The translations under genes and the position numbers were made by a program. This document shows positions 1,358-31,679 of a stretch of 37,564 bases of DNA, in pieces (the first letter of the stretch is position 1; every line of letters starts with the position of its first letter). This DNA comes from Patescibacteria group bacterium (lineage in GTDB: Bacteria; Patescibacteriota; Minisyncoccia; Minisyncoccales; Staskawiczbacteraceae): positions 1 to 37,564 of the forward strand of contig JAKLDQ010000005.1 in the NCBI GenBank assembly GCA_022703425.1. The letters are read 5' to 3'. Below the pieces are notes generated by a model, which was given only the letters and a program-made list of their open reading frames with translations, had not been told where the DNA came from and did not search any database.

Positions 1358-1963
1358 CTATATTATGTGCGGTTTCCTGACGATCGGCCACTGTCCGCGG
1401 TCGATCCAGGGCTCGCCATTTTTCCTGCCCCCAAGAAGCTCCCGCATCAGTTTCGGCAAAGTGCCGGACTTTTGGGCTGATGGAAACTTAATGAAAAGCA
1501 AAGACGTACATGGATTGTTTTCGTCCCACGCCCTTCGGTTTTCTGTTTTGGGATCGCGTCCGTGCCTGCGCATTTGTTCTGTGACATTCGCATAAATAAC
1601 TTTTTTCAGGTCTTCCATTGCCTGTTCTGAATTTCGTCCGGCGAGGGACAAAATTCTTTTCTTGTCGTCCTCGGAAATACCCGGGAAGCCGTACGCCTCC
1701 ACAATCGCAAGACAGACCGCAACGTATGTCGGGTCGCATATGACCATTTCGCCGAGCTCCTTTGAAATGGTTGCAAACCTGACTCTCGTGCGGTATTTCT
1801 CCAGCGTTATCCTTTCAATCTCGTCGTAAATTGCGGGAGAAACTGTCGCAATCTGCAAGACACGAGGTGCTGAGCGCCTGTTCTCTTCTCCAAAAAACGT
1901 GAAGAGTAAATACAGAATCACCATCGCAACAATGAGATTAGGTGCATCTCCGAATTTTTTCAC
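1358..1963 (-). CDS. Orphan protein with N-terminal membrane anchor
   Basis: 201 residues, not recognised. Residues 10-24 (LIVAMVILYLLFTFF) form one transmembrane segment or uncleaved signal. The rest is soluble and charged, with CDPTYVAVCLAIVEAYGFPG in the middle and a Gly/Lys/Arg-rich tail. The GTG start at 1961-1963 is supported by AAGGAG six bases upstream and by a textbook promoter at 2017-2045. It is monocistronic, with its own terminator. Codon use is more G/C-rich than in the ribosomal genes alongside. It belongs to the orphan class described in the findings. The function cannot be inferred. Confidence 0.8.
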   Translation of the reverse strand: MKKFGDAPNLIVAMVILYLLFTFFGEENRRSAPRVLQIATVSPAIYDEIERITLEKYRTRVRFATISKELGEMVICDPTYVAVCLAIVEAYGFPGISEDDKKRILSLAGRNSEQAMEDLKKVIYANVTEQMRRHGRDPKTENRRAWDENNPCTSLLFIKFPSAQKSGTLPKLMRELLGGRKNGEPWIDRGQWPIVRKPHII

Positions 1964-2016
1964 TGCAGTCTCCTTCTTTGGGCAGTTTTGGTTTTGGTAT
2001 TTAATGTCCTGTATTA

Positions 2017-2045
2017 ATTATATCATGTTATGCTCTTATTGTCAA
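2017..2045 (-). promoter_or_regulatory. Sigma70-type promoter of the 201-residue gene
   Basis: On the minus strand, exact TTGACA (2040-2045), a 17-base spacer and exact TATAAT (2017-2022). Transcription would start near 2010, giving a leader of about 47 bases. Confidence 0.85.
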
Positions 2046-2060
2046 TAGTATCAGCAGAAA

Positions 2061-2091
2061 CAAAAACAGCCCTAAAAGTTCGGGCTGTTTT
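2061..2091 (-). terminator. Terminator of rplJ-rplL
   Basis: Stem AACAGCCC / GGGCTGTT with an eight-base loop, followed by TTTTG on the minus strand, just past the rplL stop. Confidence 0.9.
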
Positions 2092-2101
2092 CGCTGAAAT
2101 T

Positions 2102-2506
2102 TTATTTAATTTCAACCTTAGCGCCTGCTGCTGCAAATTTCTTTGCAATTTCGTCAGCTTCCTCTTTCTTTACTCCCTCTTTGACCAACTGAGCTGTTCC
2201 GGCTGCTGCTGCGTCAACCAGGTCTTTTGATTCCTTCAGACCCTTGGCTGTAACGTCTCTGACAACCTTGATAACCTCAATTTTTTGTGCGCCGACTTCC
2301 TTCAATTCAACATTGAAAGATGTTTTCTCTTCAGCCGGAGCTGCTGCACCTGCGGCAACAACTGCAACCGGAGCTGCTGCTGAAACGCCGAATTTTCCCT
2401 CCAAAACTTTTACTAATTCGGCCAGTTCAACAACTGACATTTTCTCGATTTCAGATACCAGCTTTTGAAATTTTTCTGGCACTTCTACGTTATTTTCTTC
2501 TGCCAT
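2102..2506 (-). CDS. rplL: Large ribosomal subunit protein bL12 (L7/L12)
   Basis: 134 residues. The N-terminal dimerisation helices ([21 protein letters not shown]) are followed by an Ala-rich hinge (about 44-60). The C-terminal factor-binding domain starts at [22 protein letters not shown] and contains the conserved GLKESKDLV. The C-terminal domain carries a small Ala/Gly/Thr insert (AAAAGTAQ) after KDLV compared with E. coli, which makes the protein somewhat longer than the usual ~120. bL12 forms the stalk with uL10 and recruits translation GTPases. It is 11 bases downstream of rplJ and shares its promoter. No SD precedes the ATG. Confidence 0.97.
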
Positions 2507-2517
2507 GATTTTTATAA

Positions 2518-3018
2518 TTAAACTGTTTGTTTTTCTCTTATTTTATCCAGAACTCTTGCAAGGCTCGACATCGGGCTGGCAATTGAACCAACCAATCTGC
2601 CCAGCAATTCGTTTCTGGAAGGAATATTGGCTAAAACCAACACTCTTTCTTTTTCGATAAATCTGTTCTCAAAAATTCCGCCCAGAATCTTGAAATTTTC
2701 ATTTGTTTTTGCAAACTGGTTTGAAATTCTTGCCGGAGCAACTTCGTCTTCCACTCCTATAACCAAAGCCAGCTGTCCTGGGACGTTCTTTTTGATTTTA
2801 TTCCAGAAAGAAACATTAGACTGCCCGAGGGCGATTCTAATCAAGGTTTTCTTTCCGATTTTGAGCATGCAACCTGCTTCTTTGAGGTTTTTTCTCAAAT
2901 TAAAAAGATCCTTTGAGTTTACTTTTGTAAAATCGACAAAAATTATCGATTTCTTGTTCGAAACTTTTTCTTTAAGGTCTTTTATCTGTTTTGTTTTTTG
3001 TTCTTTTGTTAAAGGCAT
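2518..3018 (-). CDS. rplJ: Large ribosomal subunit protein uL10
   Basis: 166 residues, normal family length. The N-terminal part [20 protein letters not shown] and the [20 protein letters not shown] region match the rRNA-binding domain, and the C-terminal helix ([17 protein letters not shown]) matches the bL12-binding spine. uL10 anchors bL12 dimers on the ribosome. It represses its own operon by binding the leader at 3035-3160. A modest AAGGA precedes the ATG, one of the few SD-like sites on a housekeeping gene here. The usual upstream partners rplK and rplA are not in this window. Confidence 0.97.
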
Positions 3019-3034
3019 ATTCCTTTATTTTATT

Positions 3035-3160
3035 CAACTAAAAAGCCTGTGTTTCCACAGACAACGACCTCAAGCCAGCATAAAGCTGGTATCTTGCCTC
3101 GGCAGGAAATTTTATGTACCCATTAAGGGCGACAACCTGCTGTCTGTGGCTATTTAGTTA
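3035..3160 (-). ncRNA. Ribosomal protein L10 leader (autoregulatory mRNA element)
   Basis: The leader between the promoter and rplJ is closed by a long-range helix AACTAAATAGCC / GGCTTTTTAGTT. Inside are the elements typical of the L10 leader family (Rfam L10_leader): CCACAGACAGCAGG pairing with GTCTGTGG, the CCTGCCGAGGCAA kink-turn-like segment, and the hairpin ACCAGC-TTTAT-GCTGG. The complex of L10 with L7/L12 binds this RNA and represses translation. It was recognised by motif, without a covariance search. Confidence 0.9.
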
Positions 3161-3167
3161 TGGCATA

Positions 3168-3196
3168 ATATTAATCTATTTTTCTCTCCTTGTCAA
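3168..3196 (-). promoter_or_regulatory. Promoter of rplJ-rplL
   Basis: Minus strand TTGACA (3191-3196), 17-base spacer, TAATAT (3168-3173). The predicted start is right at the 5' edge of the L10 leader. Confidence 0.88.
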
Positions 3197-3204
3197 GCGC
3201 AATC

Positions 3205-3231
3205 AAAAAGAGCCCCTTTAGGGCTCTCCTT
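3205..3231 (-). terminator. Terminator after mltG
   Basis: Hairpin AGAGCCC / GGGCTCT at 3209-3227 with TTTTT on the minus strand. It follows the mltG stop and insulates the rplJ promoter. Runs of A flank both sides, so it could work in both directions. Confidence 0.85.
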
Positions 3232-3233
3232 TT

Positions 3234-4253
3234 TTACCTCAAATACTGCGCGCGGGCAATGTTGTGCTGTTCAAATGTTTTGCTGAATATTGTCCTGCCA
3301 GATCCCGATGCCGACAGATAATAAAGATATTCTGTTTTCGTAGGATAAACCGCCGCTGTTATCGAATCTATTCCCGGATTTGAAATCGGCCCGGCAGGCA
3401 AACCTTTGTATTTATATGTGTTGTATGGAGAGTCTATTTTTGTGTCCTTTATTGCAACTCCCGCGTCGCTTTTTCCTGTTATATAGTTTACAGTCGAATC
3501 AACCTGCAGGGGCATATCAATGGAAAGGCGCTTCCACAATATCCCCGAAACAATTTTTTTGTCATTCAGACTTCTCACCTCTTTTTCAATAATTGAGGCC
3601 ATCGTTATAATTTCAAAAACCGATTTTTTTTGTTTTGCAATTTCTTCTCTCAATTCCGGAGTAAGCTTTTTGTCAAAATTTGTCAGTATTTTTTGCATTA
3701 CATCCCTCGCCTCCTCCCCCAGCGACACCTGATATGTGTCGGGAAAGAGATATCCTTCAAGCCCTATGTCCCTTGGCTTGTCAGTAAGAACCGGAAAGTC
3801 CCTGCTGAAATCTTCCTGCGCCAGGTTTAAAAATTCCTCTTCTGTGCAGATTTCTTTTTCTTCAAGATATTTTGCAATGTCATATTTGTCCCAGCCTTCA
3901 AGAATTGTCACTTTCTGCCTGATTACATCTCCTTGAACCAGTTTTCTTACTATTTCTGCAGTCGACATCGACGGAGAAAGCGAATATTTTCCCGCCTTCA
4001 CTTTGCCATGCTGGAGCGTGGCAATAACAAACCCGCGAAAAAACAAACTGCTTTTGATAATACCCATTTCTTCGAGCTGCTGGGCAATTTCATCGTCGCC
4101 CCATCCTTTCGGAGCCGTATAAACAATACTGTCTTTCGATAAAAAATTCACGGGAATGTAAATTTCCCACACAATTAAGAGCAAAATAAATGCGCCCAAA
4201 ACCGAGAAGGCGCGCCCAGCATATTTTAAAATTTGTTTTTTGTTGATTATCAT
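3234..4253 (-). CDS. mltG: Endolytic murein transglycosylase MltG (YceG-like)
   Basis: 339 residues from the ATG at 4251-4253. A longer open frame exists, but its N-terminal 52 residues overlap the upstream gene and are not MltG-like. An N-terminal membrane anchor (about 12-32, FSVLGAFILLLIVWEIYIPV) leads into a LysM-like part (PKGWGDDEIAQQLEEMGII). The YceG catalytic core follows: EGYLFPDTYQV, then MASIIEKEV with the catalytic Glu, and GLPAGPISNPG near the C-terminus. MltG cleaves nascent peptidoglycan glycan strands at the outer face of the membrane and limits their length. The stop of the upstream 113-residue gene overlaps this ATG (TAATG), which implies translational coupling. Confidence 0.95.
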   Translation of the reverse strand: MIINKKQILKYAGRAFSVLGAFILLLIVWEIYIPVNFLSKDSIVYTAPKGWGDDEIAQQLEEMGIIKSSLFFRGFVIATLQHGKVKAGKYSLSPSMSTAEIVRKLVQGDVIRQKVTILEGWDKYDIAKYLEEKEICTEEEFLNLAQEDFSRDFPVLTDKPRDIGLEGYLFPDTYQVSLGEEARDVMQKILTNFDKKLTPELREEIAKQKKSVFEIITMASIIEKEVRSLNDKKIVSGILWKRLSIDMPLQVDSTVNYITGKSDAGVAIKDTKIDSPYNTYKYKGLPAGPISNPGIDSITAAVYPTKTEYLYYLSASGSGRTIFSKTFEQHNIARAQYLR

Positions 4254-4594: not shown

Positions 4595-4599
4595 ATCAG

Positions 4600-4969: not shown

Positions 4970-5041
4970 GCAGGGGCTGAGGGAATCGGACCCCCATCCG
5001 TGGTTTTGGAGACCACTATTTTACCATTAAACTAAGCCCCC
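4968..5041 (-). tRNA. tRNA-Trp (CCA)
   Basis: Acceptor GGGGGCT pairs with AGCCCCT (one G-T at position 1-72). Discriminator G, typical for Trp, is followed by an encoded CCA. The anticodon arm is GTGGT-CTCCAAA-ACCAC, anticodon CCA. The D-loop is AATGGTAA with G18 and G19. The T-arm is GGGGG-TCCGATT-CCCTC, so position 55 is C rather than U. A TATAAA sits 5-10 bases upstream of the 5' end. Confidence 0.93.
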
Positions 5042-5108: not shown

Positions 5109-5114
5109 TATTGC

Positions 5115-5360: not shown

Positions 5361-5393
5361 CGTAAAATAAAAGCCCTTGGCTGCGCCTCGGGC
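5361..5393 (-). terminator. Terminator of the 244-residue orphan
   Basis: GCCC / GGGC stem with a 13-base loop that can extend internally (GAGGCGCAGCC), followed on the minus strand by TTTTATTTT. Confidence 0.75.
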
Positions 5394-5412: not shown

Positions 5413-6147
5413 TTAAGGAATTGTTTTCAGACTGCGCACGGGGTGCAGGACCATCTTCCGCCCGTTGAGGCGAAGCACTCTTTTCTTTCTTGCAAAAAGG
5501 CAATGTTCGCGCAAAGCATTGCGCATGAACATCGGCACCTGCTCGCGCATTACCAGAAGCTGTTCTGCCCTGCTCATTCTCGGCGTAAAAAGTTTCAAAT
5601 ATGCTTCTCCCGCAGAGACTGCCGGGCGCGGAACTGCGCCGGCAACAAAACACTCATGATCGAATATAAGGCGTATTGCCATCAACAGAGGTTCTGCCGG
5701 AAACACGGACATATCGGCCTTTGTATATAAAAGAGTCCTTGGACTGAATGTTTTGCCAAAAACCTGCTTGGAGCACGAGAAAAAAACTTTCTGTCCGTTC
5801 CAGTACACTCCTTTTTCATAAATGCGCAGGCCTTTGAACTTTCCCCTGTTTTCTCTGGCTTTTCTTGATGCCAGATTCCAATCTATTAAAGTTGTTTCAA
5901 CAAGAATCCTGCTGGTGTAAAGAGGACTGCAGACGTTTACCGCTGCGGCTTTTATGTTTGGATTCCACGGAAGAAAATCCGTTTTCACAAGAAAATAATC
6001 GTCCGTTTCCAAAAACATCGTCCCTGCAGGCACATCCTGCCGAAGGCATCCGCAAGGCAGAACAGTGTCGAGATTGCATCCTCCTCTAAAAAATCTCCAG
6101 AGATTGTGGATCACTTTGGACACTAGCAGTCCGTCCCGGCTTTTCAT
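5413..6147 (-). CDS. Orphan protein of unknown function
   Basis: 244 residues with no recognised domain and no signal peptide or membrane helix. Six cysteines are scattered and do not form a motif. It is rich in Arg, Leu and Phe, and the C-terminus (KKRVLRLNGRKMVLHPVRSLK) is strongly basic. AGGGGGA lies upstream of the ATG. An exact TTGACA / TATAAT promoter sits at 6212-6241. The leader contains the hairpin GCTGCAAA / TTTGCAGC. It is monocistronic with its own terminator. It may act on nucleic acid because of its basic tail, but that is a guess. Confidence 0.75.
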   Translation of the reverse strand: MKSRDGLLVSKVIHNLWRFFRGGCNLDTVLPCGCLRQDVPAGTMFLETDDYFLVKTDFLPWNPNIKAAAVNVCSPLYTSRILVETTLIDWNLASRKARENRGKFKGLRIYEKGVYWNGQKVFFSCSKQVFGKTFSPRTLLYTKADMSVFPAEPLLMAIRLIFDHECFVAGAVPRPAVSAGEAYLKLFTPRMSRAEQLLVMREQVPMFMRNALREHCLFARKKRVLRLNGRKMVLHPVRSLKTIP

Positions 6148-7563: not shown

Positions 7564-7884
7564 TCACGTGGCAACGCAAACCCCGGTTACGAGACTTGCA
7601 TTTTCCGGATTGCTCCGGAATTCCTGTAAAATGGCTGAAAGGCCTCCGCGCTTTCTGTCAATGGCAAACAGCCATCCGTAAACAGTGCGCGGATAAATTC
7701 CGCTTCTAAGGAAATCAACAAAGATTCTTTCTGCCTGTCCGCCGGCATCCCCGCTGACGAGCCAAATTTCGCCAAGGTCATTCAGCAATTCGCACGTTTG
7801 GTATTCAGCGCCTTTTCCATGGCCGTTGATCCCGTCAATGATTTCCTGAAAACTCAGTCCTGTCTGCAGTCCGTTCGGCGACAT
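7564..7884 (-). CDS. Orphan soluble protein of unknown function
   Basis: 106 residues, not recognised. It has no signal or transmembrane segment. The predicted fold is mostly helical, with LSFQEIIDGINGHG at the start and AERIFVDFLRSGIYPRTVYGWLFAIDRKRGGLSAIL in the second half. It ends with TGA. GAGGAGG lies six bases before the ATG, with a TTGACA promoter at 7939-7967. About 18 bases past the stop, two GAGCCC runs and a T-tract may terminate it, but no perfect hairpin is seen. Confidence 0.72.
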   Translation of the reverse strand: MSPNGLQTGLSFQEIIDGINGHGKGAEYQTCELLNDLGEIWLVSGDAGGQAERIFVDFLRSGIYPRTVYGWLFAIDRKRGGLSAILQEFRSNPENASLVTGVCVAT

Positions 7885-9780: not shown

Positions 9781-10065
9781 TCAAAGGCCATGTTTTCGAT
9801 TGTACTCACAAAGGAGTTCAACCGCTGCTTTCTTGTTCCGCCGGGTGCGGACAAGCTCAGCGCCAAGCCGTCTGATTTCTCCGATTAGGAACTTTTCCTC
9901 ATCTTCAAGGTCATCCACCTCGGAAACCAGCTCGGCAACCGGATCCTGAACTGGCTCGGCACCCTGCCGATCAAGTTCTTCTTTCGCCACGCGGAACCTA
10001 TTAAGTTCCTCGGCAAACAATTCGGCTGCGTCCACCCGTGAAACAGAATTATATGTACAACTCAT
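9781..10065 (-). CDS. Orphan coiled-coil protein
   Basis: 94 residues from the ATG at 10063-10065, chosen because GGAGG lies five bases upstream. A frame four codons longer would put that SD inside the gene. It is acidic and mainly helical with heptad spacing (ELFAEELNRFRVAKEELDRQG, then VAELVSEVDDLEDEEKFLIGEIRRLGAELVRTRR) and ends in a basic stretch. No family is recognised. It may form a two-helix coiled coil. It lies downstream of the 93-residue orphan. No clean promoter was found, so it may be read through from that gene past the intervening hairpins. Confidence 0.72.
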   Translation of the reverse strand: MSCTYNSVSRVDAAELFAEELNRFRVAKEELDRQGAEPVQDPVAELVSEVDDLEDEEKFLIGEIRRLGAELVRTRRNKKAAVELLCEYNRKHGL

Positions 10066-10271: not shown

Positions 10272-10553
10272 TTACAATTTCCGTGGCATTTTGTCGATTA
10301 CAAGCAACGAAGTTGCCTCGTCGACATGCAGTACACGACCATCAAAATGATCTAAGGTTTCAGGATCAATCGCCAGTAAAAGCTTATCTTCCTTCACCAG
10401 CAAAAAATCCTCTGGCCGTTGCTGATCAACAATCAGCTCTGGCCCCTCTTGGGTGACCACAATCCGAAGGCAATCCTCGGAATACTCCGCAGTCTCACGG
10501 AGCGTTTGCCGGAGACGTTCCACCGCTTTCGGTTCTACCTTCAGCACAGACAT
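10272..10553 (-). CDS. Orphan with a HesB/IscA-like fold lacking the cysteines
   Basis: 93 residues from the ATG at 10551-10553, set by AGGAGG seven bases upstream. The open frame continues 48 codons further without homology. MSVLKVEPKAVERLRQTLRE, LRIVVTQEGPELIVDQ, then DKLLLAIDPETLDHFDGRVLHVDE follow the strand and helix order of A-type iron-sulfur carrier proteins (HesB/IscA), including the D-KSL--L-G motif. The three conserved cysteines (C-S-G and C-X-C) are missing, so it cannot carry a cluster in the usual way. The fold assignment is by eye. A long leader of about 190 bases separates it from a strong promoter. Confidence 0.7.
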   Translation of the reverse strand: MSVLKVEPKAVERLRQTLRETAEYSEDCLRIVVTQEGPELIVDQQRPEDFLLVKEDKLLLAIDPETLDHFDGRVLHVDEATSLLVIDKMPRKL

Positions 10554-12898: not shown

Positions 12899-15800
12899 TT
12901 AGAAAGGCGAAATTTCTCTCCAATCTGGAAGACCGGAATCTCCTTTATTTGTCTTAACATTTAGATTGACCGAATTAATACAACATCCTGTTTCGTCGCA
13001 TATCCGCAGAGTTGCCACATATGTCCCGGCATTCTGATATACGTGAGACCTTGTTCCTTCGGCACTTAAACCGTATCCGAATGTCCCATCGCCAAAATCC
13101 CAGACATAACAGTCTCTCCGGCCGTCGCCATTCTCATCGCTTGCAGCCGTGCACTGCGAAGAAGTCAGTGTCTTGCATGCAAAGGGATCGCCATCCGCAT
13201 TCCAGCAGAAAGAAGTATGATCTCTGAAAACTACCGTATCGCCCGGCCGTGGCGGATTTGTTGAATCATATCCCAAAATATCAAACTGCGGATTCGGAGC
13301 CGGATGTGTTTTTGGAAAGCCGTATCGAACCCCGTTTATCCAAGCGGATGCCCCGCCGTTCGAATCCCAAACCTTAACCCTCCAGTAATAAGTTTCTCCG
13401 TAGGCAATGTGATCGCAAAGACTCGAAGGCAAGCCGTATACATCGCAATAATCATCAACCGGATCGGGTTTTACAAATACGATCTGCTCGTTCGTTGAGC
13501 CGGAATTCATCGACAAATTTTCATAAATCCTATCAACTGACGGCGACGCAAATGAGGAATCGTCATCAATTTGTATCTGAAATCTCATTTCCCTGTCACC
13601 GCTGGCATCTATATATCTCCATCTGAATATGGCCATTCCGGTTCCTGCAATCCCAGTACAGTAGCTTCCCTCCAGCGCTTGCAAATTATCAGCGGAAGGA
13701 GCGTCGTTTACAACACAAACCTGATCTATAAAACTGCACTCGTTGATTCCTGCGCCGACGACGCACTCGCACATTCCATAAATACATTCTAAATGGTGTT
13801 CCTGGTCAAGACAGACACAATCTTGGGCGCTTTCGCATTCATCTGCACCCGACCCTTCAACGCAGACACACTGTGAATTGACGCACTCCATGTGGTTGGC
13901 TTCGTCATCCACACAATCCAAACAATCCTCATTGATTGTCGGACATGAATCAATTCCCGGTCCCACGACACACTCGCACATACCGTACAAACATTCCAAA
14001 TGGTGTGTTTGATTCAAACATGAGCAGTCTTCTGAGCTTTGGCATTCGTTCGGAGCATCGCCTTCGACACAAACGCACTGATTTCCAACGCATTCTGTGT
14101 GATGGGCAGAATCCGGACAATCCGTGCAAATATCATTGAAGTTCTGGCACGAATTTTCACCGGGGCCCACAACGCATTCGCACATTCCGTAAACACATTC
14201 CAAATGATGAGTCTGGTTTAAACACGAGCAATCCTCGTCATTTTGACATTGATCCGCGCCTTCTCCCGGCACGCATACGCATTGGCCGTTCTGGCATTCG
14301 GTATGATTTTCAGATTCAGGGCAGTCTTCGCAATCGTCATCAATATTTTGGCACTCATTGATACCAGGCCCCACAACACATTCGCAGACACCATAGAGAC
14401 ACTCTAAATGGTGCTCTTGCGTCAGACACACGCAATCTGCAGAGTTAGCGCATGAAATTTCTGTATTTCCTCCGGGCAAGCATGTAATCGCACTGCCCGA
14501 AACATTACATGTTGCGACTGTATTAAGGCAATCAGAGTTGCTGTCGCACGGAATTCCTGTTCCCAATGATGAGCATTGTTTTTCTGCAGTACATTTATTA
14601 AGAGCGTTACATACCAAATCGCTCGTACAGCTTGCGCCTCCTCCGCCGGGCACGCATTGTCTCAAACTATTGCATGACAATCCGTTATTCTCGCATTGTT
14701 CGTTGTTTGTACATGCAATTCCCGTTCCCGTTGTTGAACATTGCCTGCCCACAGTACATCTGGTGGGGCTTGTTACACATCCGGAACTCGAGGTGCACAC
14801 AGCGCCTCCTCCGCCCGGGACACATTGATTAAATTCATTACATGACATTCCTGAATTCCGGCACTGGAAAGGATCATTACAGGTTAATCCTGTTCCCCCG
14901 CCAATACATTGTCCCAGAGAATTGCATCTTGTTAGGGTTGTTCTGCACGAGGTGCTGGTACAGCCTGTCGCACCGCCGCCTCCCGGCACGCACTGGTCAT
15001 ATTCATTGCATGCAAGCGGAAGTCCTAAACATTGCGAGCTATTTGAACAGGAAAGTCCTGTTCCGCCTTCAACACATTGATTCATTATGTTGCATCCGAG
15101 AGTATTTGTTACACAGTCTGTCGCGCTCGAACATCCCGCTCCGCTTCCCCCTTCAACACATTGATTATATGCATTGCATGTTCTATTGCTGCAATCAAGA
15201 TTTGTTGTACAACTGTCAGTTCCGCAACCCGCAACACTCCTGCAAACACCTGCGACACATTCTGCATGAGGATTGCTTTCACCTGTAGGGCATGTCTGGC
15301 AGTTCAAACATGATGAAACACCACAGGAATTGACCTGCCTGCAGACACCATAAACACATTCTGTGTGCGGATTTGAAGTCCCAGGAGGACACGGACAGAG
15401 TGAACAGTTATCGCTTACTGCACACCAGTTTCTTGTTAGACACGAGCCGTCGGGCTGACATTCCTGATGCGGTTTTGATTGTCCGTCTGGACAAGGACAG
15501 TCAGTGCAACTCACATTTGCTCCGCATCCGTTAACACTAATACATGTTCCGTTCGGACCGCATTCAGTATGCGGACTCGTTTGTCCCGGCGGACACTCAC
15601 AACCATAACAATTATCTGTCCCACAGCTGTTTACATATGTGCAAGATCCATTTTGACAAGCTTTGTGAGGCTTTTTCTGTCCCGCCGGGCAATTGCACGT
15701 GTTGCAATCTACGCTTGCTCCGCAAGAATTCACACTCCGGCACTCACTCTCATAACATACATTATGCGGATTACTTTGTCCCTCTGGACAAACTATCACA

Positions 15801-17401
15801 CTGCCGTCTCCACAATCATCACAACCCGTCCACTCCCCATCAATGCATGTATAATTTCCAGGACCGCATTCGCAAGGCATTGTTTCCCCAGCAATACATC
15901 CGGGGCAATCGCTCCACTGCCCTCCAATGCATACACTCGATCCTCCACCATTACTGCAAGGCGTAGTCGAACCCTCTGGTGAGCAACCGCCCATATCTGT
16001 GCAAGGGCCGTCGCATGTAATATCTATTTCCGGCTCTTTGCATGTTGCAGTGTTAGGAACAGCTCCAGGAATACAGCGGCCGGGATATGTAATTGTAATA
16101 GTACATTGCAAATTATCAGAACAGAATGAAGCAGTTGTTGTGTCCGGATCTCCGCAGTCAGCTTCGGTTCTCGTTATATCTGCCTCCTCACAATGTGCTA
16201 AGCCCGGCTGATATGGCCACATTCCTGTACCAGGACAAACCGTGCCAAGGACACAAATATTTTCAGCCGCCATTTCCGCCGAACATAATGTTTCGGGATA
16301 ACAATTGCTTCCTCCTGTGGGAGGAGTCGAAACACATTCATAATTTTGCACTTCAGTTACAACTTTTCTCCCTTCGCAGTGTGATCCCAGTCCTTGCGGC
16401 ATTGGACAAGTTTCTTTTGTTGTCTGAAATTCGTTATGAGTGCAGGCATACCAAGGGTCGTAGGGCACCAATACGCAACCATTAAAGATATGTGCCTCGA
16501 CAACGTTTTGGCCCACACAAAATGTCCCTCTGTCTTCGTCTGTCGCCCCGCAATCCACCCTTCTCCAATTGGCATCATCATAATCGCAGTATGCGTTCGT
16601 CGGATTTGGTGCCACACAGCTCCCTCCATCGAGAGTTTCCTCATAAATGGCATGAGGAGGAATGTATAGCACAGAACATTTTCTGTCCGGCCTTTGGCAA
16701 TTCTTGTCTTCCACCTCTGTAATCGGACAAACTGTTTGACCGGCTACACACGGAGTTTTCTGCCTTTTCCATACATCATTATTTTTGCAGAAAAATGTAT
16801 GAGTATCGCATTCATCAACAACCCTGGTTTCTGTTTCACATCTTTTGTCCACTGCATCACAAGTATTTGTTTTGTCTACAATATGACCGCCCTCACAGAC
16901 CCGCGTCGTTCCAACAAAGCAGTTAGTATCTGAAACTACGGTTTCAGGATTGCACTTTTTTTCTGTTGCATTGCATATTCTTTGTCTTCCAATGAGATGT
17001 CCGTTAACACAGGAATATGTTATGGGACCGCAGTTTGCAATAGTATGCGTCCCCCATTCGCACTTTCCCGTAGCTGAAACACACGCGTTACCGCGCATAA
17101 TAAGTTTGTTATCTTCACACCAATATTCATCGGACCCCCCGCACTTTAGTTGGTAATCAGTACCTTTTACACAACTCCAAATGTTTGGAGGCATGCATTC
17201 TGATGTTGCCGGATCAAACCAGTCAGTACATGCACAGTAGTACGGAGTTATTTTCATTGTTTCAGAATCTATGCATGAAAACTTCCACTTGGAATCACAA
17301 TCATAAGCATCTTCATCGCATCCCACCGAAAAAACAACTGCGGGGGCAAAAAAGACTGAGAGGCAGAGAAAGAAAAATACTTTTTTCAGTGATTTTTTCA
17401 T
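12899..17401 (-). CDS. Giant secreted cysteine-rich repeat protein with PKD domain
   Basis: 1500 residues. Signal peptide at about 1-26 (KKVFFFLCLSVFFAPAVVFS). Residues 27-530 are Cys-rich without strict periodicity. About 535-725 hold six CP-G-S-PH--C units. About 725-985 hold nine CN---QCV-GG-type units. About 985-1232 hold four HHLEC--G-CECVVG-G units alternating with three H-EC-N-QCVCV-G units. Residues about 1240-1370 look like a beta-sandwich (Fn3-like, YYWRVKVWDSNGG). Residues about 1395-1490 are a PKD domain (CYVWDFGDGTFG, then HVYQNAGTYVATLRICD). There is no C-terminal anchor or sorting motif. It is probably a disulfide-stabilised cell-surface adhesin or stalk. It starts one base after the stop of the 140-residue gene, and the operon order suggests joint export. 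Frames antisense to it are composition shadows. Confidence 0.88.
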   Translation of the reverse strand: MKKSLKKVFFFLCLSVFFAPAVVFSVGCDEDAYDCDSKWKFSCIDSETMKITPYYCACTDWFDPATSECMPPNIWSCVKGTDYQLKCGGSDEYWCEDNKLIMRGNACVSATGKCEWGTHTIANCGPITYSCVNGHLIGRQRICNATEKKCNPETVVSDTNCFVGTTRVCEGGHIVDKTNTCDAVDKRCETETRVVDECDTHTFFCKNNDVWKRQKTPCVAGQTVCPITEVEDKNCQRPDRKCSVLYIPPHAIYEETLDGGSCVAPNPTNAYCDYDDANWRRVDCGATDEDRGTFCVGQNVVEAHIFNGCVLVPYDPWYACTHNEFQTTKETCPMPQGLGSHCEGRKVVTEVQNYECVSTPPTGGSNCYPETLCSAEMAAENICVLGTVCPGTGMWPYQPGLAHCEEADITRTEADCGDPDTTTASFCSDNLQCTITITYPGRCIPGAVPNTATCKEPEIDITCDGPCTDMGGCSPEGSTTPCSNGGGSSVCIGGQWSDCPGCIAGETMPCECGPGNYTCIDGEWTGCDDCGDGSVIVCPEGQSNPHNVCYESECRSVNSCGASVDCNTCNCPAGQKKPHKACQNGSCTYVNSCGTDNCYGCECPPGQTSPHTECGPNGTCISVNGCGANVSCTDCPCPDGQSKPHQECQPDGSCLTRNWCAVSDNCSLCPCPPGTSNPHTECVYGVCRQVNSCGVSSCLNCQTCPTGESNPHAECVAGVCRSVAGCGTDSCTTNLDCSNRTCNAYNQCVEGGSGAGCSSATDCVTNTLGCNIMNQCVEGGTGLSCSNSSQCLGLPLACNEYDQCVPGGGGATGCTSTSCRTTLTRCNSLGQCIGGGTGLTCNDPFQCRNSGMSCNEFNQCVPGGGGAVCTSSSGCVTSPTRCTVGRQCSTTGTGIACTNNEQCENNGLSCNSLRQCVPGGGGASCTSDLVCNALNKCTAEKQCSSLGTGIPCDSNSDCLNTVATCNVSGSAITCLPGGNTEISCANSADCVCLTQEHHLECLYGVCECVVGPGINECQNIDDDCEDCPESENHTECQNGQCVCVPGEGADQCQNDEDCSCLNQTHHLECVYGMCECVVGPGENSCQNFNDICTDCPDSAHHTECVGNQCVCVEGDAPNECQSSEDCSCLNQTHHLECLYGMCECVVGPGIDSCPTINEDCLDCVDDEANHMECVNSQCVCVEGSGADECESAQDCVCLDQEHHLECIYGMCECVVGAGINECSFIDQVCVVNDAPSADNLQALEGSYCTGIAGTGMAIFRWRYIDASGDREMRFQIQIDDDSSFASPSVDRIYENLSMNSGSTNEQIVFVKPDPVDDYCDVYGLPSSLCDHIAYGETYYWRVKVWDSNGGASAWINGVRYGFPKTHPAPNPQFDILGYDSTNPPRPGDTVVFRDHTSFCWNADGDPFACKTLTSSQCTAASDENGDGRRDCYVWDFGDGTFGYGLSAEGTRSHVYQNAGTYVATLRICDETGCCINSVNLNVKTNKGDSGLPDWREISPF
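13700..15795 (-). repeat. Three classes of cysteine-repeat coding units
   Basis: Within the giant gene, roughly 15230-15795 encodes six CP-G-S-PH--C units, 14440-15230 nine CN---QCV-GG units and 13700-14440 seven alternating HH/H-EC units. The units are similar but not identical at DNA level, typical of old internal duplications. They lack the identical short repeats and regular spacers of a CRISPR array. Confidence 0.8.
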
Positions 17402-18430: not shown

Positions 18431-18459
18431 TTGACAACAAGGCGTATAATTGGTATACT
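18431..18459 (+). promoter_or_regulatory. Promoter of the 339-residue secreted orphan
   Basis: TTGACA (18431-18436), 17-base spacer, TATACT (18454-18459). The leader contains the hairpin GGGGAAACTTTCCCC and then GGAGG before the ATG. Confidence 0.8.
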
Positions 18460-18522: not shown

Positions 18523-19542
18523 ATGAGAACCCTGATTCTTGCTTTGGCTGTTCTGGTGTTCTGCCCGGCCTGTTTCGGCAGAGAATACAAAGTCTCCGAA
18601 GGAGACGGAGAGGTTTCCAACGGACCCTGGCTTCAGCACAATGGATTGGCAAATGTCGGTCCGATCAAGTTACGTTTTCAAACTTGGCTTACTGACGGAG
18701 AAAGTCCGCAGACTGTTGAAGTATATCTTAAAAACTGGTTCAGCTTCTGTCACACGCAAGTTGAATACTTCGATGATCTGGAGGACATTGAGAGCTACGA
18801 GATGACTCCCTACGAGAGGGAAGTAAAGATCACATACAGCAGGAGTGCAAAGACCCTGACATCCAACGCTTGCGGAGAAAATGTTAAGATCAACAAGATC
18901 TTTATTACAAAGGCGCTGGACAGGTATGTTGCTCTAAAAATTAGGGGAACACGACGTTTGTGGAATTCGGCATCTGAAATGCCCGGCTGGTTCAAGGTGA
19001 ACTACGGCATTAAGAGCGAAGAAGATCTCAGCAAAATCAAGTACAATCCAAACGATCCAAAAGTGAATCTTTTGGATAACTGGCTTGTCGTTTGTTACGA
19101 ATGGAAGGCGTGGGAGCCCGTCGAAGAAGACGGCGTAAAACCTTACCGGATTCTTGCCGGAAAACAGTTCAATCTGGCAGGAGTCAACTTCTCGTGGTCT
19201 GAGTTTCCAATTCAGACTGCAGAGAAAAAGGTCAGGCTGACCTACAGTTGTCCTACCTCAGGCAAAAAAATCGCCTACGCGGCGCTTCCCGAGGGAGTCA
19301 AGAACCCCAGAGCTGAAAAGTTTTGGGAATCGTCTGAAAGCGAAAAGTCCCTTCCGATTCCAATCGGACGGACCATCAGCTTTCGCATCACCTCTGACAG
19401 AGGCAGCAAGTTCGTTGCCTTGACACCTATTGAGACAGAAAGGAAGTCGACAGGGATGTACTTCTCGTACGAAGTAAACTGGGACACCGAAGTTCCTCCA
19501 ACCAATGTAGTTGCCACTGCTCCGGCGACTACCATCAAATAA
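18523..19542 (+). CDS. Secreted orphan protein
   Basis: 339 residues. The signal peptide MRTLILALAVLVFCPACFG could be a lipoprotein signal with the lipid Cys at position 17. The mature part is beta-rich with several scattered Cys, Trp-rich stretches (NGPWLQHNGLANVG, MPGWFKVNYG) and duplicated-looking segments with VKITYSRSAKTLTSNACG and VRLTYSCPTSGKKIAYAA. That suggests two related beta-domains, which is inference. A Thr/Ala tail (PPTNVVATAPATTIK) ends it. GGAGG lies nine bases before the ATG. It has its own promoter and terminator. It uses more AAG, GAG and CTG-type codons than dnaE nearby. The function is unknown. Confidence 0.82.
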   Translation: MRTLILALAVLVFCPACFGREYKVSEGDGEVSNGPWLQHNGLANVGPIKLRFQTWLTDGESPQTVEVYLKNWFSFCHTQVEYFDDLEDIESYEMTPYEREVKITYSRSAKTLTSNACGENVKINKIFITKALDRYVALKIRGTRRLWNSASEMPGWFKVNYGIKSEEDLSKIKYNPNDPKVNLLDNWLVVCYEWKAWEPVEEDGVKPYRILAGKQFNLAGVNFSWSEFPIQTAEKKVRLTYSCPTSGKKIAYAALPEGVKNPRAEKFWESSESEKSLPIPIGRTISFRITSDRGSKFVALTPIETERKSTGMYFSYEVNWDTEVPPTNVVATAPATTIK

Positions 19543-19577
19543 CCCTCATGACTCTTTGAAGCCATGAGGGCTTTTTT
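19543..19577 (+). terminator. Terminator of the 339-residue gene
   Basis: CCCTCATG / CATGAGGG stem with a 12-base loop, followed by CTTTTTTG. Confidence 0.92.
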
Positions 19578-20481: not shown

Positions 20482-20682
20482 TTACAGGTCGTCTTGCAAA
20501 TAATCCAGCGCACGATCACGTTTGCTGTTGGCAAACAGATTCACCGCGCCGGCGAATGTCAGGGTTATTACGTAGACTGCTACCCCTGTACAGGGATAAT
20601 AGTCTGCGAGATAGCCCGAAACAAGAATATAAATCAGCGCCAAAGCGCCGATCACGATAGCGGAAATCAAGTTTTTAGCCAT
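20482..20682 (-). CDS. Small two-pass membrane orphan protein
   Basis: 66 residues with two transmembrane helices, about 4-25 (NLISAIVIGALALIYILVSGYL) and 34-50 (VAVYVITLTFAGAVNLF), separated by ADYYPCTG. The charged C-terminus is KRDRALDYLQDDL. It is not recognised. AAGGAG precedes the ATG by five bases. An exact TTGACA / TATAAT promoter lies at 20729-20758. A strongly folded 3' region and a palindromic terminator follow. The antisense frames here are shadows. Confidence 0.75.
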   Translation of the reverse strand: MAKNLISAIVIGALALIYILVSGYLADYYPCTGVAVYVITLTFAGAVNLFANSKRDRALDYLQDDL

Positions 20683-24060: not shown

Positions 24061-24098
24061 AAAAAAACAGCCCGGAGAGAGATTTCTCTCTGCGGGCT
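24061..24098 (-). terminator. Terminator of the paired membrane orphans
   Basis: AGCCCG-AGAGAGA / TCTCTCT-CGGGCT hairpin (24069-24098) with TTTTTTT on the minus strand. It lies back to back with the dnaE terminator. Confidence 0.92.
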
Positions 24099-24119: not shown

Positions 24120-24422
24120 TTACTTATCGCTTAACTCTTTGATGTCGGCTACCCAAAGAAGATTTGGCGGAATGTCCTTTTCGGGGACAACCACAATTTC
24201 CCCCTTGTAGTTTAGGACACAAACATTTGTCCGCGGGTCCTTGATATAAGTAAATCGGTTGACCACCTCGTTCACGAACTGCTGATTTAATTCTACGTAA
24301 CGTTTTTGCTCCTCTTGTTTTTGTTCCGTCGTCGGCATAGCAGGGCGGGCAATAAGCACGCAAAGTACTAATCCAACAAACATCGCAACGAGGCCCCCGA
24401 GAAGTGCAATTGCCTCTCTCAT
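24120..24422 (-). CDS. Membrane-anchored orphan, paralogue of the next gene
   Basis: 100 residues. One N-terminal transmembrane helix (AIALLGGLVAMFVGLVLCVLI), a Gln/Glu-rich linker and an outer domain FTYIKDPRTNVCVLNYKGE, VVVPEKDIPPNLLWVADI. The same block (YIKDPRTN-C, VVPEKDIP, VAD) is in the gene at 24473-24808, so the two arose by duplication. The KD-RTGLCFA-like motif also occurs in small proteins of phages and environmental bacteria as I remember them, without a known function. GAGGAG lies before the ATG. It is co-transcribed with its paralogue, 50 bases downstream. Confidence 0.78.
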   Translation of the reverse strand: MREAIALLGGLVAMFVGLVLCVLIARPAMPTTEQKQEEQKRYVELNQQFVNEVVNRFTYIKDPRTNVCVLNYKGEIVVVPEKDIPPNLLWVADIKELSDK

Positions 24423-24472: not shown

Positions 24473-24808
24473 CTAATCGCGTTCTGCCTTCATTTTATCA
24501 ACATCGGCGACCCGGATTAGCTCCTGCGGAATGTCCTTTTCGGGGACAACCGTTAATGCCGGTCCGCGACTCCAGTAAAAGGCAAAACAGAGATTTGTCC
24601 GCGGATCTTTAATGTACTCGATTCCGCCGGCGACCTCATTTGCATTGTACTGAAGGTTTGCTTCCCGTACCTCAGCACTTTGCTCCGCAGACAGCTGTAC
24701 GGTTGGTTCTGGCGAAGAAGTGTAGAAAACCCATGCACCTACCGCGGAAAAGTCAGCGATCACGAAAAGCACCATAAGAGAAATAATCACCTTTTCACTT
24801 GTTTTCAT
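24473..24808 (-). CDS. Membrane-anchored orphan with YIKDPRTN-C motif
   Basis: 111 residues. N-terminal transmembrane helix about 7-28 (VIISLMVLFVIADFSAVGAWVF), a Ser/Glu-rich linker with LSAEQSAEVREANLQYNA, and the conserved block IEYIKDPRTNLCFAFYWS, LTVVPEKDIPQELIRVADV. It is the first gene of a two-gene unit with a strong promoter. AAGGGGGTGA lies before the ATG. It has one cysteine in the outer domain, as in the paralogue, so an intermolecular disulfide is possible but not shown. Confidence 0.78.
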   Translation of the reverse strand: MKTSEKVIISLMVLFVIADFSAVGAWVFYTSSPEPTVQLSAEQSAEVREANLQYNANEVAGGIEYIKDPRTNLCFAFYWSRGPALTVVPEKDIPQELIRVADVDKMKAERD

Positions 24809-28332: not shown

Positions 28333-28406
28333 TTAACATTCCAAATCGCAAGGCGCAAATTACCAATACAATTTGCGGCTGGCAGTTTGGCGTCATAATT
28401 ATAGTT

Positions 28407-29921
28407 ATGAAAAAAATATTTTTTGCTTTATTATTATCCTCCCTGCTGATGGCATCTGCTCTGCCTGTTTTGGCAGATGATATATCTACGGTTACCGACA
28501 GCCAGCAAGCACTAATTAAGGGGCTGGACGTTAAAGAAATAAAAATCCTGCCGAACAGTCCTTTTTACTTTTTAAAAGAATGGCAGAGAAAAATTGCACT
28601 TACTTTCACTTGGAACAACACAAAAAAAGCCGAACTTCTTTCGAAAATTTCAAACGAGAAATTAGCCGAGATACAAAAACTTCTTGAAAGCGGAGCATCT
28701 GCGGATACAATCAAAAAGGCGCTTGAAAGCTACAAGCAGGAGATAAAAGATATAAAAAGCACGGCTGATAAGATAAAAACAGATGCAAAAAACGATCCCA
28801 ATATTAACAAGTTTTTAGAAAAATTTACAAACCAGCAGACATTGCATGAAGGCATCCTGCAGAAACTGAAAGATCAGGTGCCTGAACCTGTTATTGAAAA
28901 AATTACCCAGGCGAGAGAAGAACATTTGGAAAAATTCCAGCAGGTAATGCAGAGGCTGCAAAACAGAGACTGTCCCCGAATCGACAAGGATCCGTCATCC
29001 TGTGAAAATGGAAGAATGGTGCCCCAGAAAGATTCGAAGGGGTGTGTTACCGGATTCCAGTGCGTCGAAAATCAAAACGTATGCACAATGGAATATGCGC
29101 CTGTCTGTGGCGTAAACGGCAGAACATATGGCAATAAATGCGTCGCAGATAATGCGGGTGCTGCAATCGCCCACCAGGGAGAATGCGTTGCCGGAAAAAA
29201 GTGCGCAAGTGATTCTGATTGCGGAAAAATCTGCCCTTCCTGCGGAACGCCTGACGACAGCATAGAATATAAAAACTGTCTGAATGCTTGCACAAACCAA
29301 AAATGCGTCAACGGCGAGTGCAAAATGGCCGGGAATAACAACAAGCCAGAGTGCAGAAAAAACTCAGATTGTCCTACAATTTATTGCATTAAAGCTCCCT
29401 GCCCCGTTAACAAATGCATAAACGGCAAATGTAAGGTTGAGGAAACAGCCCAATGCCAAACTGACGCTGATTGCGCATCAAAAGGCGTAAATTACGTCTG
29501 CAACAAAGGTGTCTGCAATAAAGCAGTAACTCCATGCAACACGCTTTGGTATTATGATAACGACCACAAGTTCTGCCAGCAAAGGAGTTTCTGCGGAGCA
29601 TATATGTATCTCGGCCTGCGCACTTTCTCAGGAAAAACAGAGTGCATTTCAAATCTTGGCAGATCAACTCCTTCAACTCAGGAGGAATGTGCAAAAGCAG
29701 GCGGGACATGGGGAAAAATAGGCCTATCTCCCACGGATGCCTGCAATATAAAAGCCGCTGATTTCGGAAAAACCTGCACAGATCAAAGCCAGTGCCAGGG
29801 AACATGCATAGGAGAAAACGAATCTTCTGTATCTGGAAAATGCAGTGAATGGATAATTACTGTTGGATGCCACCCCATACTGCAGAATGGCAAAGTAAAC
29901 GGAACATTGTGCACCGATTAA
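28407..29921 (+). CDS. Secreted DUF5667-like protein with Kazal-type and Cys-rich modules
   Basis: 504 residues. The signal peptide is KKIFFALLLSSLLMASALPVLA. Residues ~45-185 are helical and resemble DUF5667 (PNSPFYFLKEWQRKIALTF, KAELLSKISNEKLAEIQKLL). At ~220-260 a Kazal-type module reads CTMEYAPVCGVNGRTYGNKC, then HQGEC with the canonical Cys spacing of these protease-inhibitor domains. Four or five Cys-rich units with C-SD-DCG, C-N-EC and C-NGKCK patterns follow to about 370, then a divergent Cys-rich C-terminus. It may be an extracellular inhibitor or adhesin. Similar Cys units in the giant protein suggest a shared surface repertoire. No SD is present. Confidence 0.85.
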   Translation: MKKIFFALLLSSLLMASALPVLADDISTVTDSQQALIKGLDVKEIKILPNSPFYFLKEWQRKIALTFTWNNTKKAELLSKISNEKLAEIQKLLESGASADTIKKALESYKQEIKDIKSTADKIKTDAKNDPNINKFLEKFTNQQTLHEGILQKLKDQVPEPVIEKITQAREEHLEKFQQVMQRLQNRDCPRIDKDPSSCENGRMVPQKDSKGCVTGFQCVENQNVCTMEYAPVCGVNGRTYGNKCVADNAGAAIAHQGECVAGKKCASDSDCGKICPSCGTPDDSIEYKNCLNACTNQKCVNGECKMAGNNNKPECRKNSDCPTIYCIKAPCPVNKCINGKCKVEETAQCQTDADCASKGVNYVCNKGVCNKAVTPCNTLWYYDNDHKFCQQRSFCGAYMYLGLRTFSGKTECISNLGRSTPSTQEECAKAGGTWGKIGLSPTDACNIKAADFGKTCTDQSQCQGTCIGENESSVSGKCSEWIITVGCHPILQNGKVNGTLCTD

Positions 29922-29929
29922 GCAATCAA

Positions 29930-29957
29930 AGCAGCTCCTTGAAGGAGCTGCTTTTTT
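29930..29957 (+). terminator. Terminator of the Kazal/DUF5667-like gene
   Basis: AGCAGCTCCTT / AAGGAGCTGCT hairpin followed by TTTTTTG, before miaB. Confidence 0.95.
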
Positions 29958-29980
29958 GTTGTACATTTAAGCATTATTAT

Positions 29981-31267
29981 ATGGCGAAAAAGAGTTATTA
30001 TATCACTACTTTCGGGTGCCAGATGAACGTTTCAGACAGCGAGAGAATTGCATCTATGTTGAGCAGTTTGGATTATGTCCCCGCAAGTAACCTCGAAGAT
30101 GCAGACCTGGCTTTGGTAAATATGTGTTCTGTCAGGCAGACAGCCGTAGACAGAGTCCACGGACTTGCAAAAAAGTTCAGGGAAATACGCGAAAAAAACA
30201 AAAAGTTCACTGCTATACTTACAGGTTGTGTTTTAAAAAAAGACTCCCAAAAGTTATGCAAAATTTTTGATTACGTGATTGATGTGCGGGAAATAAAGGA
30301 TCTGGCAAAGTTTCTGGGAAGCAAAAGTTTTGATTCAATAGATCACTATCTGCAGATTGCCCCCGCACACCAGTCAAAGTTTTCTGCCAATGTTCCGATA
30401 ATGACAGGATGCAATAATTTCTGCACATATTGTGTTGTACCTTACACAAGAAACCGTGAAACATCGAGGCCGGCAAAAGAGATAGTTGCCGAAATTACAA
30501 AGCTTGTAAAAAAGGGGTATAAAGAAATATGGCTCCTGGGGCAAAACGTAAATTCCTATCATGGATTAATACTTTCGAAAAAAGGGTGGACAAGCTTTTC
30601 AGAACTATTGGAAATGATCGAAGAAATACCAGGCGAATTCTGGGTTCGTTTTACATCCAGTCATCCCAAGGATTTTAATGAGAAAGTAATCAAGACAACA
30701 GCTTCCTGCAAAAAAGTCACCCCATATTTAAATCTTCCGGTGCAGTCGGGCGACAATGCAATTTTAAAAAAAATGAACCGGCGCTATAAGGTAAGCGACT
30801 ACAAGGCGTTAATTAAAAAGGCCAGAAAAGAAATCCCAAATCTCTGCCTTTCCACAGATATTATTGTGGGTTTCCCCGGCGAAACCCAAAAACAGTTTGA
30901 AAACACTGCAAAACTTTTTCGGGAAGTCGGTTATGATATGGCGTATATAAACAAATATTCTCCCCGCCCGGGAACTGCCGCAGAAAAGCTGAACGATAAT
31001 GTCTCAAAAGAAGAAAAGAAAAATCGTGAAAAAATCCTTACCGAGATCTTAAAGGAAACCGCACTGGAAAACAATAAAAAAATTGTCGGGAAAGAAACAG
31101 TCGTTTTGATTGATTCAAAAACAAACGATGGATGGCTTGGAAAAAATGACCAGTATAAAACAGTAAAAATTAAGAGTAATGGACAGAAAAAAGATCTGGT
31201 TGGAAAATTCGTAAACGTGAAAATCACAAAAGCCATGGAATGGGCGCTCGAAGGCGAAATAAAATAA
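29981..31267 (+). CDS. miaB: tRNA-2-methylthio-N6-dimethylallyladenosine synthase MiaB
   Basis: 428 residues from the ATG at 29981; a longer frame overlaps the previous gene and crosses its terminator. The N-terminal MTTase domain has its three cluster cysteines in TTFGCQMNVSDSERI, LVNMCSVRQTA and ILTGCVLKKD. The radical SAM motif is MTGCNNFCTYCVVPYTRNRE (CXXXCXXC), with VTPYLNLPVQSGD and STDIIVGFPGET following. The C-terminal TRAM domain spans about 365-428. It adds the methylthio group to i6A37 of tRNAs. The isopentenyl step is provided by miaA only 405 bases downstream. No SD is present. Confidence 0.97.
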   Translation: MAKKSYYITTFGCQMNVSDSERIASMLSSLDYVPASNLEDADLALVNMCSVRQTAVDRVHGLAKKFREIREKNKKFTAILTGCVLKKDSQKLCKIFDYVIDVREIKDLAKFLGSKSFDSIDHYLQIAPAHQSKFSANVPIMTGCNNFCTYCVVPYTRNRETSRPAKEIVAEITKLVKKGYKEIWLLGQNVNSYHGLILSKKGWTSFSELLEMIEEIPGEFWVRFTSSHPKDFNEKVIKTTASCKKVTPYLNLPVQSGDNAILKKMNRRYKVSDYKALIKKARKEIPNLCLSTDIIVGFPGETQKQFENTAKLFREVGYDMAYINKYSPRPGTAAEKLNDNVSKEEKKNREKILTEILKETALENNKKIVGKETVVLIDSKTNDGWLGKNDQYKTVKIKSNGQKKDLVGKFVNVKITKAMEWALEGEIK

Positions 31268-31285
31268 AAGCACCCTTGAGGTGCT
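31262..31285 (-). terminator. Terminator of the 102-residue orphan
   Basis: AGCACC / GGTGCT hairpin (31269-31285) followed on the minus strand by TTTATTTTATTTC. It overlaps the last codons of miaB. Confidence 0.75.
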
Positions 31286-31298
31286 ATGTAAAGAAGTT

Positions 31299-31607
31299 TT
31301 ATTCTTTCCAGTTTTTGGAAAGTCCTTTCAGTGTTTCGTTGGGACAGCTTGCAATGAATGCAAGAACCAAACATACCGCCGGAATCCCGATGAGAAGCAG
31401 AGCTGATGCCAGAATCAGAATTATTCCGGCAGAGACAAGAATAGCCAGCGGCGCAACCACAATTGTAATCAGAACAAGGACACAGAAGAATTTGATCCAT
31501 TCTGCAAGAAACCTCCCTGCCCGATAGATAATTCCATTTTTTGCGATTTGGACTTCGATCCTTTCCGGTCCGGCTGTTTTTTCTTCAGCCACTTCATTAG
31601 CGCTCAT
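31299..31607 (-). CDS. Two-pass membrane orphan between miaB and miaA
   Basis: 102 residues. A charged N-terminus (MSANEVAEEKTAGPERIEVQ) is followed by two long hydrophobic segments, about 39-60 (IKFFCVLVLITIVVAPLAILVS) and 62-90 (GIILILASALLLIGIPAVCLVLAFIAS), and a short basic tail. It is not recognised. GGAGG lies eight bases before the ATG. The promoter -35 box overlaps the miaA start codon on the other strand. It sits antisense between two genes of one pathway, so it is probably a later insertion. Confidence 0.75.
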   Translation of the reverse strand: MSANEVAEEKTAGPERIEVQIAKNGIIYRAGRFLAEWIKFFCVLVLITIVVAPLAILVSAGIILILASALLLIGIPAVCLVLAFIASCPNETLKGLSKNWKE

Positions 31608-31650
31608 TTTTGAGCCTCCAATTAAAAAGAGCTAAAACAACGATTTAAAC

Positions 31651-31679
31651 AATTTATAACAAATATTATTTAATGTCAA
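31651..31679 (-). promoter_or_regulatory. Promoter of the 102-residue orphan
   Basis: Minus strand TTGACA (31674-31679), then TATAAA after 15 bases (31653-31658) or TAAATT after 17 (31651-31656). The -35 box lies over the ATG and second codon of miaA. Confidence 0.65.

Follow-up and report, generated by a model that had tools for sequence, protein, structure and literature searches.

The 37,564-nt contig JAKLDQ010000005.1 (hereafter the window, the whole stretch of DNA that was analysed) of a Patescibacteria group bacterium of the family Staskawiczbacteraceae carries ten orphan genes that begin behind strong Shine-Dalgarno (SD) sites, in a genome whose only 16S rRNA tail found lacks the anti-SD sequence. 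On balance, and with somewhat better than even confidence, we read these orphans as acquired, moron-like cassettes that keep signals shaped in SD-competent cells. Genomes are labelled G (G000 being that of the window, 719,889 bases), loci L and contigs of G000 C (the window being C28), and the orphans are named by their lower coordinate in the window. The dnaE gene of the window is 76-82% identical to dnaE of named Ca. Staskawiczbacteria and similar metagenome-assembled genomes. Genome statistics were obtained from a sample of 273,898 bases (38%) of G000.

A first-pass annotation of the window had reported a clear SD at all ten orphans, and the calculated duplex energies agree, as all ten lie between -8.5 and -16.4 kcal/mol, against -7.4 to +2.2 kcal/mol for 16 native starts in the window (rpmG, -0.3). 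Most of the native genes that it had named as lacking an SD do so, the two that do not fit being trmD (GGTGG, -7.4) and gatB (AAGGAG about 14 nt upstream, -6.4). Using a duplex energy of -6.5 kcal/mol or lower as the definition of a strong SD, we screened the genome sample for gap open reading frames (ORFs), i.e. frames of at least 50 codons between called genes, with 20 dinucleotide shuffles as the null for gap ORFs and internal in-frame ATGs as the null for native starts. The screen yielded 38 strong-SD gap ORFs in 274 kb versus a shuffle mean of 6.05 (standard deviation 2.0, maximum 10; 20 shuffles), 28 versus 5.7 (maximum 9) when contig C14 was removed, and 19 versus 3.7 (maximum 9) when C14 and the window were both removed. 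Native starts reached the threshold in 14/218 cases, proportionally below the internal in-frame ATGs (136/1230), and sit in A-rich sequence (A 0.56 at position -3). As a positive control, native genes passed it in 29/46 cases in Clostridia loci (null 0.05) and 11/17 in Bacilli loci (null 0.03), that is at most starts, so the method sees SD use where it is present. The two gene populations that had been suspected are thus real over the 38% of the genome sampled. A gene caller that was trained on long frames and took no account of SDs failed to find seven of the ten window orphans.

The 3' end of the 16S rRNA gene on C14 reads GTAACAAGGCACGGGTAGCGGAAGCTGTTCGTGGATCATTTTTTTAAAA, with GGATCA kept and CCTCC gone. 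The tail found in the assembly, GGATCATTTTTTT (GGAUCAUUUUUUU in its rRNA form), is without anti-SD, and it was the sole 16S tail recovered by a pattern search of the genome; since the pattern would miss tails with a different stem (as in G353 or G003), a second tail is possible. Tails without anti-SD were also found in six other genomes of the family (G004, G005, G006, G011, G012, G019), in all four readable genomes of the order (G025, G026, G030, G041) and in four of five readable genomes of the class (G200, G386, G305, G347). G248 from the class, and G283 and G353 from elsewhere in the phylum, have kept the anti-SD. This typing covers readable tails: G007 had none, and the remaining searched genomes gave no or a partial match. 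The tail without anti-SD is the likely cause of the SD-less native starts and would account for the native side of the SD split. One study, in its available text, describes other Patescibacteria that have lost CCUCC (PMC10783764), and according to the accessible part of another, SDs are almost always absent where the classic anti-SD is absent (PMC6107228).

Codon usage separates the same two groups. Mean G+C content at third codon positions (GC3) is 0.49 in the window orphans, 0.45 in 16 orphans outside the window and 0.38 in natives (0.49 versus 0.38, p 2e-6), which confirms the richer G/C codon use first described for the window. Four ribosomal-protein genes (rpmG not among them) lie at 0.33-0.39. 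The first-pass annotation had offered two interpretations, acquired cassettes that keep foreign signals, or a special, highly expressed or stress-linked set that the cell marks by SD strength. We favour the former. A highly expressed set was rejected because orphan codon usage moves away from that of ribosomal-protein genes, and because the 16S tail found, like those of close relatives, is without anti-SD.

Promoters proved a weaker mark of the class. Exact TTGACA boxes lie upstream of eight of the ten orphans, as had been claimed; 9781 is without one and 24120 is downstream of 24473. All four 12/12 matches to the promoter consensus in the window precede orphans (1358, 5413, 10272, 20482), and an own promoter with at least 10/12 consensus matches was found upstream of six of the ten, plus 10272 (12/12). 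The native genes rplJ and the KH gene in the window also have an exact TTGACA, and in the genome sample the box occurs within 150 nt of 11/97 native first genes versus 6/31 gap SD ORFs, and within 250 nt of 5/16 chosen orphans outside the window. The contrast fades over the genome sample, and TTGACA was therefore rejected as a class marker. A strict scan found terminators behind three of the ten orphans (7564, 18523, 31299), a count that rises to seven with those visible by eye only (1358, 5413, 10272, 24120); hairpins without a T run follow 9781 and 20482, and 24473 reads into 24120.

None of the ten orphans had a match above cut-off in Pfam, NCBIfam or PHROGs; 10272 weakly resembles IscA/HesB, far below the cut-off (TIGR00049, E 0.002). 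Outside the window, a Pfam family was found for 2/20 strong-SD ORFs versus 16/20 randomly chosen SD-less natives (drawn from 110 natives and not length-matched); eight of these 20 ORFs lie on C14, and without it the count is 2/12. Nine further SD genes (5/9 with a family) bring it to 7/29, the test covering 29 strong-SD ORFs outside the window and leaving out 12 gap ORFs.

The orphans are patchily distributed. Among 35 other genomes of the family a homologue was found for 24473 only, and searches with three orphans found none in 146 other genomes of the order (six of these from the family). Thus the orphans, for which a comparison of sites between relatives had been proposed, are mostly unshared. 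The homologue of 24473 in G019 (L067) lies in the same gap between dnaE and thrS, is 43% identical over 58 amino acids (aa), and has a TTGACA and an SD, GAGGA (-5.6). The short native gene rpmF (79 aa) was found in 8/15 relatives' loci. In 26/46 relative/site cases, counted over four cassette sites, less than 200 nt separates the flanking genes, i.e. the gap is closed, and other relatives have in these gaps, among the matches listed, unrelated SD ORFs, one of which (L055) encodes a phosphopantetheine-binding carrier protein. The gaps of L054-L068 gave 36 SD ORFs versus 6.2 in shuffles, a count that includes native-gene fragments. The surrounding backbone trmD-KH-rpsP-rnc-nusB-rpmF-rnhB-dnaE-thrS-miaB-miaA-gatB largely keeps its synteny with relatives, and contamination of the window was rejected since native genes of the same contig are syntenic in them.

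Searches with six window orphans (as joined queries) against 379 genomes of the phylum found homologues of 5413 alone, at 27 and 19% identity in G283 and G353, which lie outside the class of the window and both keep the anti-SD. Each of the three copies is preceded by a TTGACA promoter and a short leader that contains an SD or a run of G, and is followed by a hairpin beyond the stop codon. The remaining four orphans were searched in a second joined query, where the sole match in their stretch, in G344 (E 7e-4), spans 31299 and 20482 within a 1034-aa frame and was taken as chance. In addition, two convergent SD genes on C15 may have their counterparts on a single contig of G311 (E 4e-5, 2e-4). 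In each of the nine genome samples, with or without anti-SD, there were more strong-SD gap ORFs than the mean of the shuffles, the weakest excesses being those of G386 (7 ORFs, not above the highest shuffle count, 8) and G248 (8 ORFs, maximum 7); the strong-SD lists of distant genomes include some ordinary genes, e.g. a pilin-like frame in L180. The class of SD orphans looks like a property of the accessory pool of the phylum, which the loss of the anti-SD in this clade makes stand out. Acquisition is favoured because of the patchy distribution, the closed sites in relatives, the atypical codon usage and the homologues of 5413 in lineages with anti-SD.

A cassette is mostly a single gene with its own sigma-70 promoter, a leader of about 37-190 nt, a strong SD and, counting those seen by eye, usually a terminator. 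Such units sit in gaps between syntenic housekeeping operons, where they would do least harm, and differ from species to species. The SD would have been shaped in SD-competent cells, be it unsampled donors or those Patescibacteria in which the anti-SD persists, and would have arrived with the cassette. Transcription would be by the ordinary sigma-70 polymerase of the host from the cassette promoter. In this cell the SD would be without a partner, and translation, if any, may proceed via the start codon and an unstructured leader, or poorly. Fast turnover of cassettes would keep the SDs undecayed, most of them being fresh.

Several observations weigh against acquisition. The assembly holds two 16S pieces, one on C14 (L016 8801-9127, with the tail) and one on C2 (L001 1-1236, which ends before the tail), that agree at only 85% over an overlap of 103 nt and may represent two rRNA genes, or include one from a binned sister species. 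The family genome G003 has an anti-SD on one contig of 6.5 kb, which may be a contaminant, its 16S being only 68% like that of C14. Natives of G283 and G353 reach -6.5 kcal/mol in 11/100 and 20/143 cases (nulls 0.076 and 0.101), so they hardly use SDs and these genomes are not obvious SD-using donors. When the C15 pair was re-examined by tblastn, one member only was found again in G311. As for vectors, six orphans had no match in phages, 5413 had none in plasmids, and 5413, 18523, 1358, 24473 and one orphan beyond the window had none in viral contigs, in scans that reach close relatives. Moreover, when 26 flanks were compared, no 9-, 11- or 13-mer was shared by more of them than in shuffled sequence, and a shared insertion motif was rejected; k-mers in two or more flanks do exceed shuffles (e.g. 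downstream 11-mers, 34 versus 11.0), an excess that may stem from promoters, T runs and the overlap between flanks of neighbours. Finally, some SD genes are not orphans, namely those for the ATP synthase a-subunit, DUF5654, MacB-like, pseudouridine synthase, WbqC, DUF134 and DUF192 proteins.

The difference between the two 16S pieces lowered our confidence in acquisition and raised that in a resident, regulated set of genes whose GGAGG would be read by a second, anti-SD-bearing 16S gene or by a protein, an explanation that we consider possible, though unlikely. Beyond the two pieces, one with its tail unseen, it would fit the retention of TTGACA and a weaker SD by the 24473 homologue in L067, the cassette anatomy kept by the 5413 homologues at 19-27% identity, and the presence of a divergent bS21-like gene after hisS (C32:25478-25639; L095 1492-1710), which scores below the Pfam cut-off, any bS21 match being found in 3/36 genomes of the family. 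However, the nearest relatives of both pieces are family members with tails that lack the anti-SD (94.6% to G019 for C14, and 94-96% to G012 and G019 over their overlapping parts for C2), nine of the ten orphans are unshared in the family, and codon usage runs away from that of ribosomal-protein genes.

We judge it improbable that the SD ORFs are old residents, evolving too fast to be recognised, with SDs that are relics predating the loss of the anti-SD. The syntenic position of the homologue in L067 argues for some long residence, but the loss is common to the readable genomes of the order, so relics should have decayed and many of the SDs are strong; furthermore, sites are closed in many relatives and codon usage has not been ameliorated. 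It is very improbable that the cassettes serve another cell, a presumed episymbiont giving DNA or RNA to a partner with anti-SD, so that the signals would be selected outside the cell. Complete canonical signals in a cell whose 16S tail, as found, cannot read an SD would be expected from such an arrangement, as would products of which several look membrane-bound or exported by eye; the same gene class nevertheless occurs in Patescibacteria that keep the anti-SD. Similarly slim is the prospect that a pool of genes with consensus promoter, SD, terminator and non-native codon usage works fully only after transfer to an SD-reading partner, and that loss of the anti-SD acts as a translational firewall between own and transferable genes. 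It is hardly credible that some of the listed ORFs arose by chance, as random frames that happen to follow an SD, or are missed natives or contamination: about 6/38 gap ORFs are expected from shuffling, some ORFs overlap others in antisense, C14 (10/38) may come from a sister species and some lists hold ordinary genes, yet in the window all ten orphans score -8.5 or lower and share a single contig with natives that are syntenic in relatives, 5413 and 24473 have protein homologues, and the excess stays after C14 is removed.

Table 1. Orphan genes of the window with their start, promoter and termination signals.
Orphan	Coordinates	Strand	Product (aa)	SD (start codon)	Promoter	Terminator or hairpin	Remarks
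1358	1358..1963	-	201	AAGGAG (GTG)	TTGACA-17-TATAAT, 2045-2017	terminator hairpin 1321-1350 (by eye)	N-terminal membrane segment (by eye)
5413	5413..6147	-	244	AGGGGG	TTGACA-18-TATAAT, 6241-6212	hairpin past stop, about 5373-5393 (by eye)	homologues in G283 and G353, same anatomy
7564	7564..7884	-	106	GAGGAGG	TTGACA 7967-7962, weak -10	terminator 7545-7527
9781	9781..10065	-	94	GGAGG	without TTGACA	post-stop hairpin without T run (by eye)
10272	10272..10553	-	93	AGGAGG	TTGACA-18-TATAAT, 10780-10751		leader about 190 nt
18523	18523..19542	+	339	GGAGG	TTGACA-17-TATACT, 18431-18459	terminator about 19545-19574	signal-peptide-like start (by eye)
20482	20482..20682	-	66	AAGGAG	TTGACA-18-TATAAT, 20758-20729		membrane segments (by eye)
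24120	24120..24422	-	100	GAGGAG		terminator hairpin 24070-24097 (by eye)
24473	24473..24808	-	111	AAGGGGGTGA	TTGACA 24917-24912, -10 at 24894-24889		membrane anchor (by eye)
31299	31299..31607	-	102	GGAGG	TTGACA-17-TAAATT, 31679-31651	terminator 31285-31269	membrane segments (by eye)

The starts of two orphans in Table 1 were revised with respect to the ORF list, 9781 to 10065 (list, 10077) and 10272 to 10553 (list, 10697). Orphans 24120 and 24473 are paralogues with 37% identity over 91 aa. Structure prediction gave a mean pLDDT (predicted local distance difference test) of 34.8 for 5413 as a single sequence and 66.7 for 24473 with two relatives. According to the available text of one study, membrane and secreted proteins abound among the novel protein families of Patescibacteria (PMC10849945); by eye, several of the orphans likewise look membrane-bound or exported. 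A wider motif, KDPRTxLCF, was considered and rejected, only three copies being known in the loci examined.

Several further strong-SD ORFs were recorded outside the window. The 9-kb contig that holds the 16S 3' end and a tRNA-Ala has about nine strong-SD orphan ORFs (L016 1277-7816), dense by the rRNA gene, and at L015 3176-3846 three tiny orphans follow one another on the same strand, each behind a strong SD of its own, with the look of an orphan operon. Two SD ORFs of G026 (L189 3848-4459 and 5735-6085) agree exactly over a 24-base leader and their first ten residues but not beyond, which may reflect a duplicated leader and signal-peptide region. A strong-SD ORF of 141 aa (L012 9970-10395) with CSDPR and GHDCG motifs had no Pfam match; we take these motifs to resemble those of beta-carbonic anhydrases. 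Among the native genes of the window, the 1500-aa giant (12899-17401) gave weak matches only (about 22-29%), to large frames at a similar position in relatives, and the gene at 28407-29921 matched relatives in patches only, both being fast-evolving proteins. The tRNA-Val gene (1000-1260) has apparent partial self-copies on both sides, seen by eye. In L068 (10001-14458) and L059 (10001-14572) dnaE matched in two pieces about 1.3 kb apart, which suggests an intein, an intron or another insert.

Phage morons are marked by an own promoter and terminator between conserved genes. The cassettes resemble them in their lack of known function, atypical composition, patchy distribution and own promoter, and differ from them in that no recognised prophage and no phage relatives were found in the searches above, in a G+C content that is higher, not lower, than that of the host, and in a strong SD without an anti-SD in the tail found. 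The first three of these shared traits are those given for phage morons and for the ORFans of bacterial genomes in the accessible part of one report (PMC1557990). As no phage carriage was found, the cassettes may work like morons rather than being morons. Integron gene cassettes are likewise modular single-gene units, many of them ORFans. Our cassettes share that modularity, but they have their own promoters, are scattered and have no shared end repeat (26 flanks). In Bacteroidetes, including Flavobacterium, the available texts describe SD-less translation (PMC6847099) and bS21 sequestration (PMC10783764); native genes there are likewise without SD, but the rRNA anti-SD is kept, whereas here it is gone from the tail found. 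SD-scarce organisms that lack CCUCC share with our genome a 16S tail without CCUCC and natives without SD above chance, and the published accounts, as far as their text is accessible, mention neither Staskawiczbacteria nor a class of strong-SD genes in genomes of this kind. A literature search gave no paper on SD-bearing orphans in genomes without anti-SD, most subscription journals being outside its reach.

Where the anti-SD has been lost, a consensus SD would serve as a natural marker of candidate newcomer genes. Gene flow into Patescibacteria could thereby be counted without homologues, over thousands of genomes. The finding also raises the question of whether, and by what route, SD-bearing messages are translated by ribosomes that lack the anti-SD, and that of the source of the large ORFan pool of the phylum.

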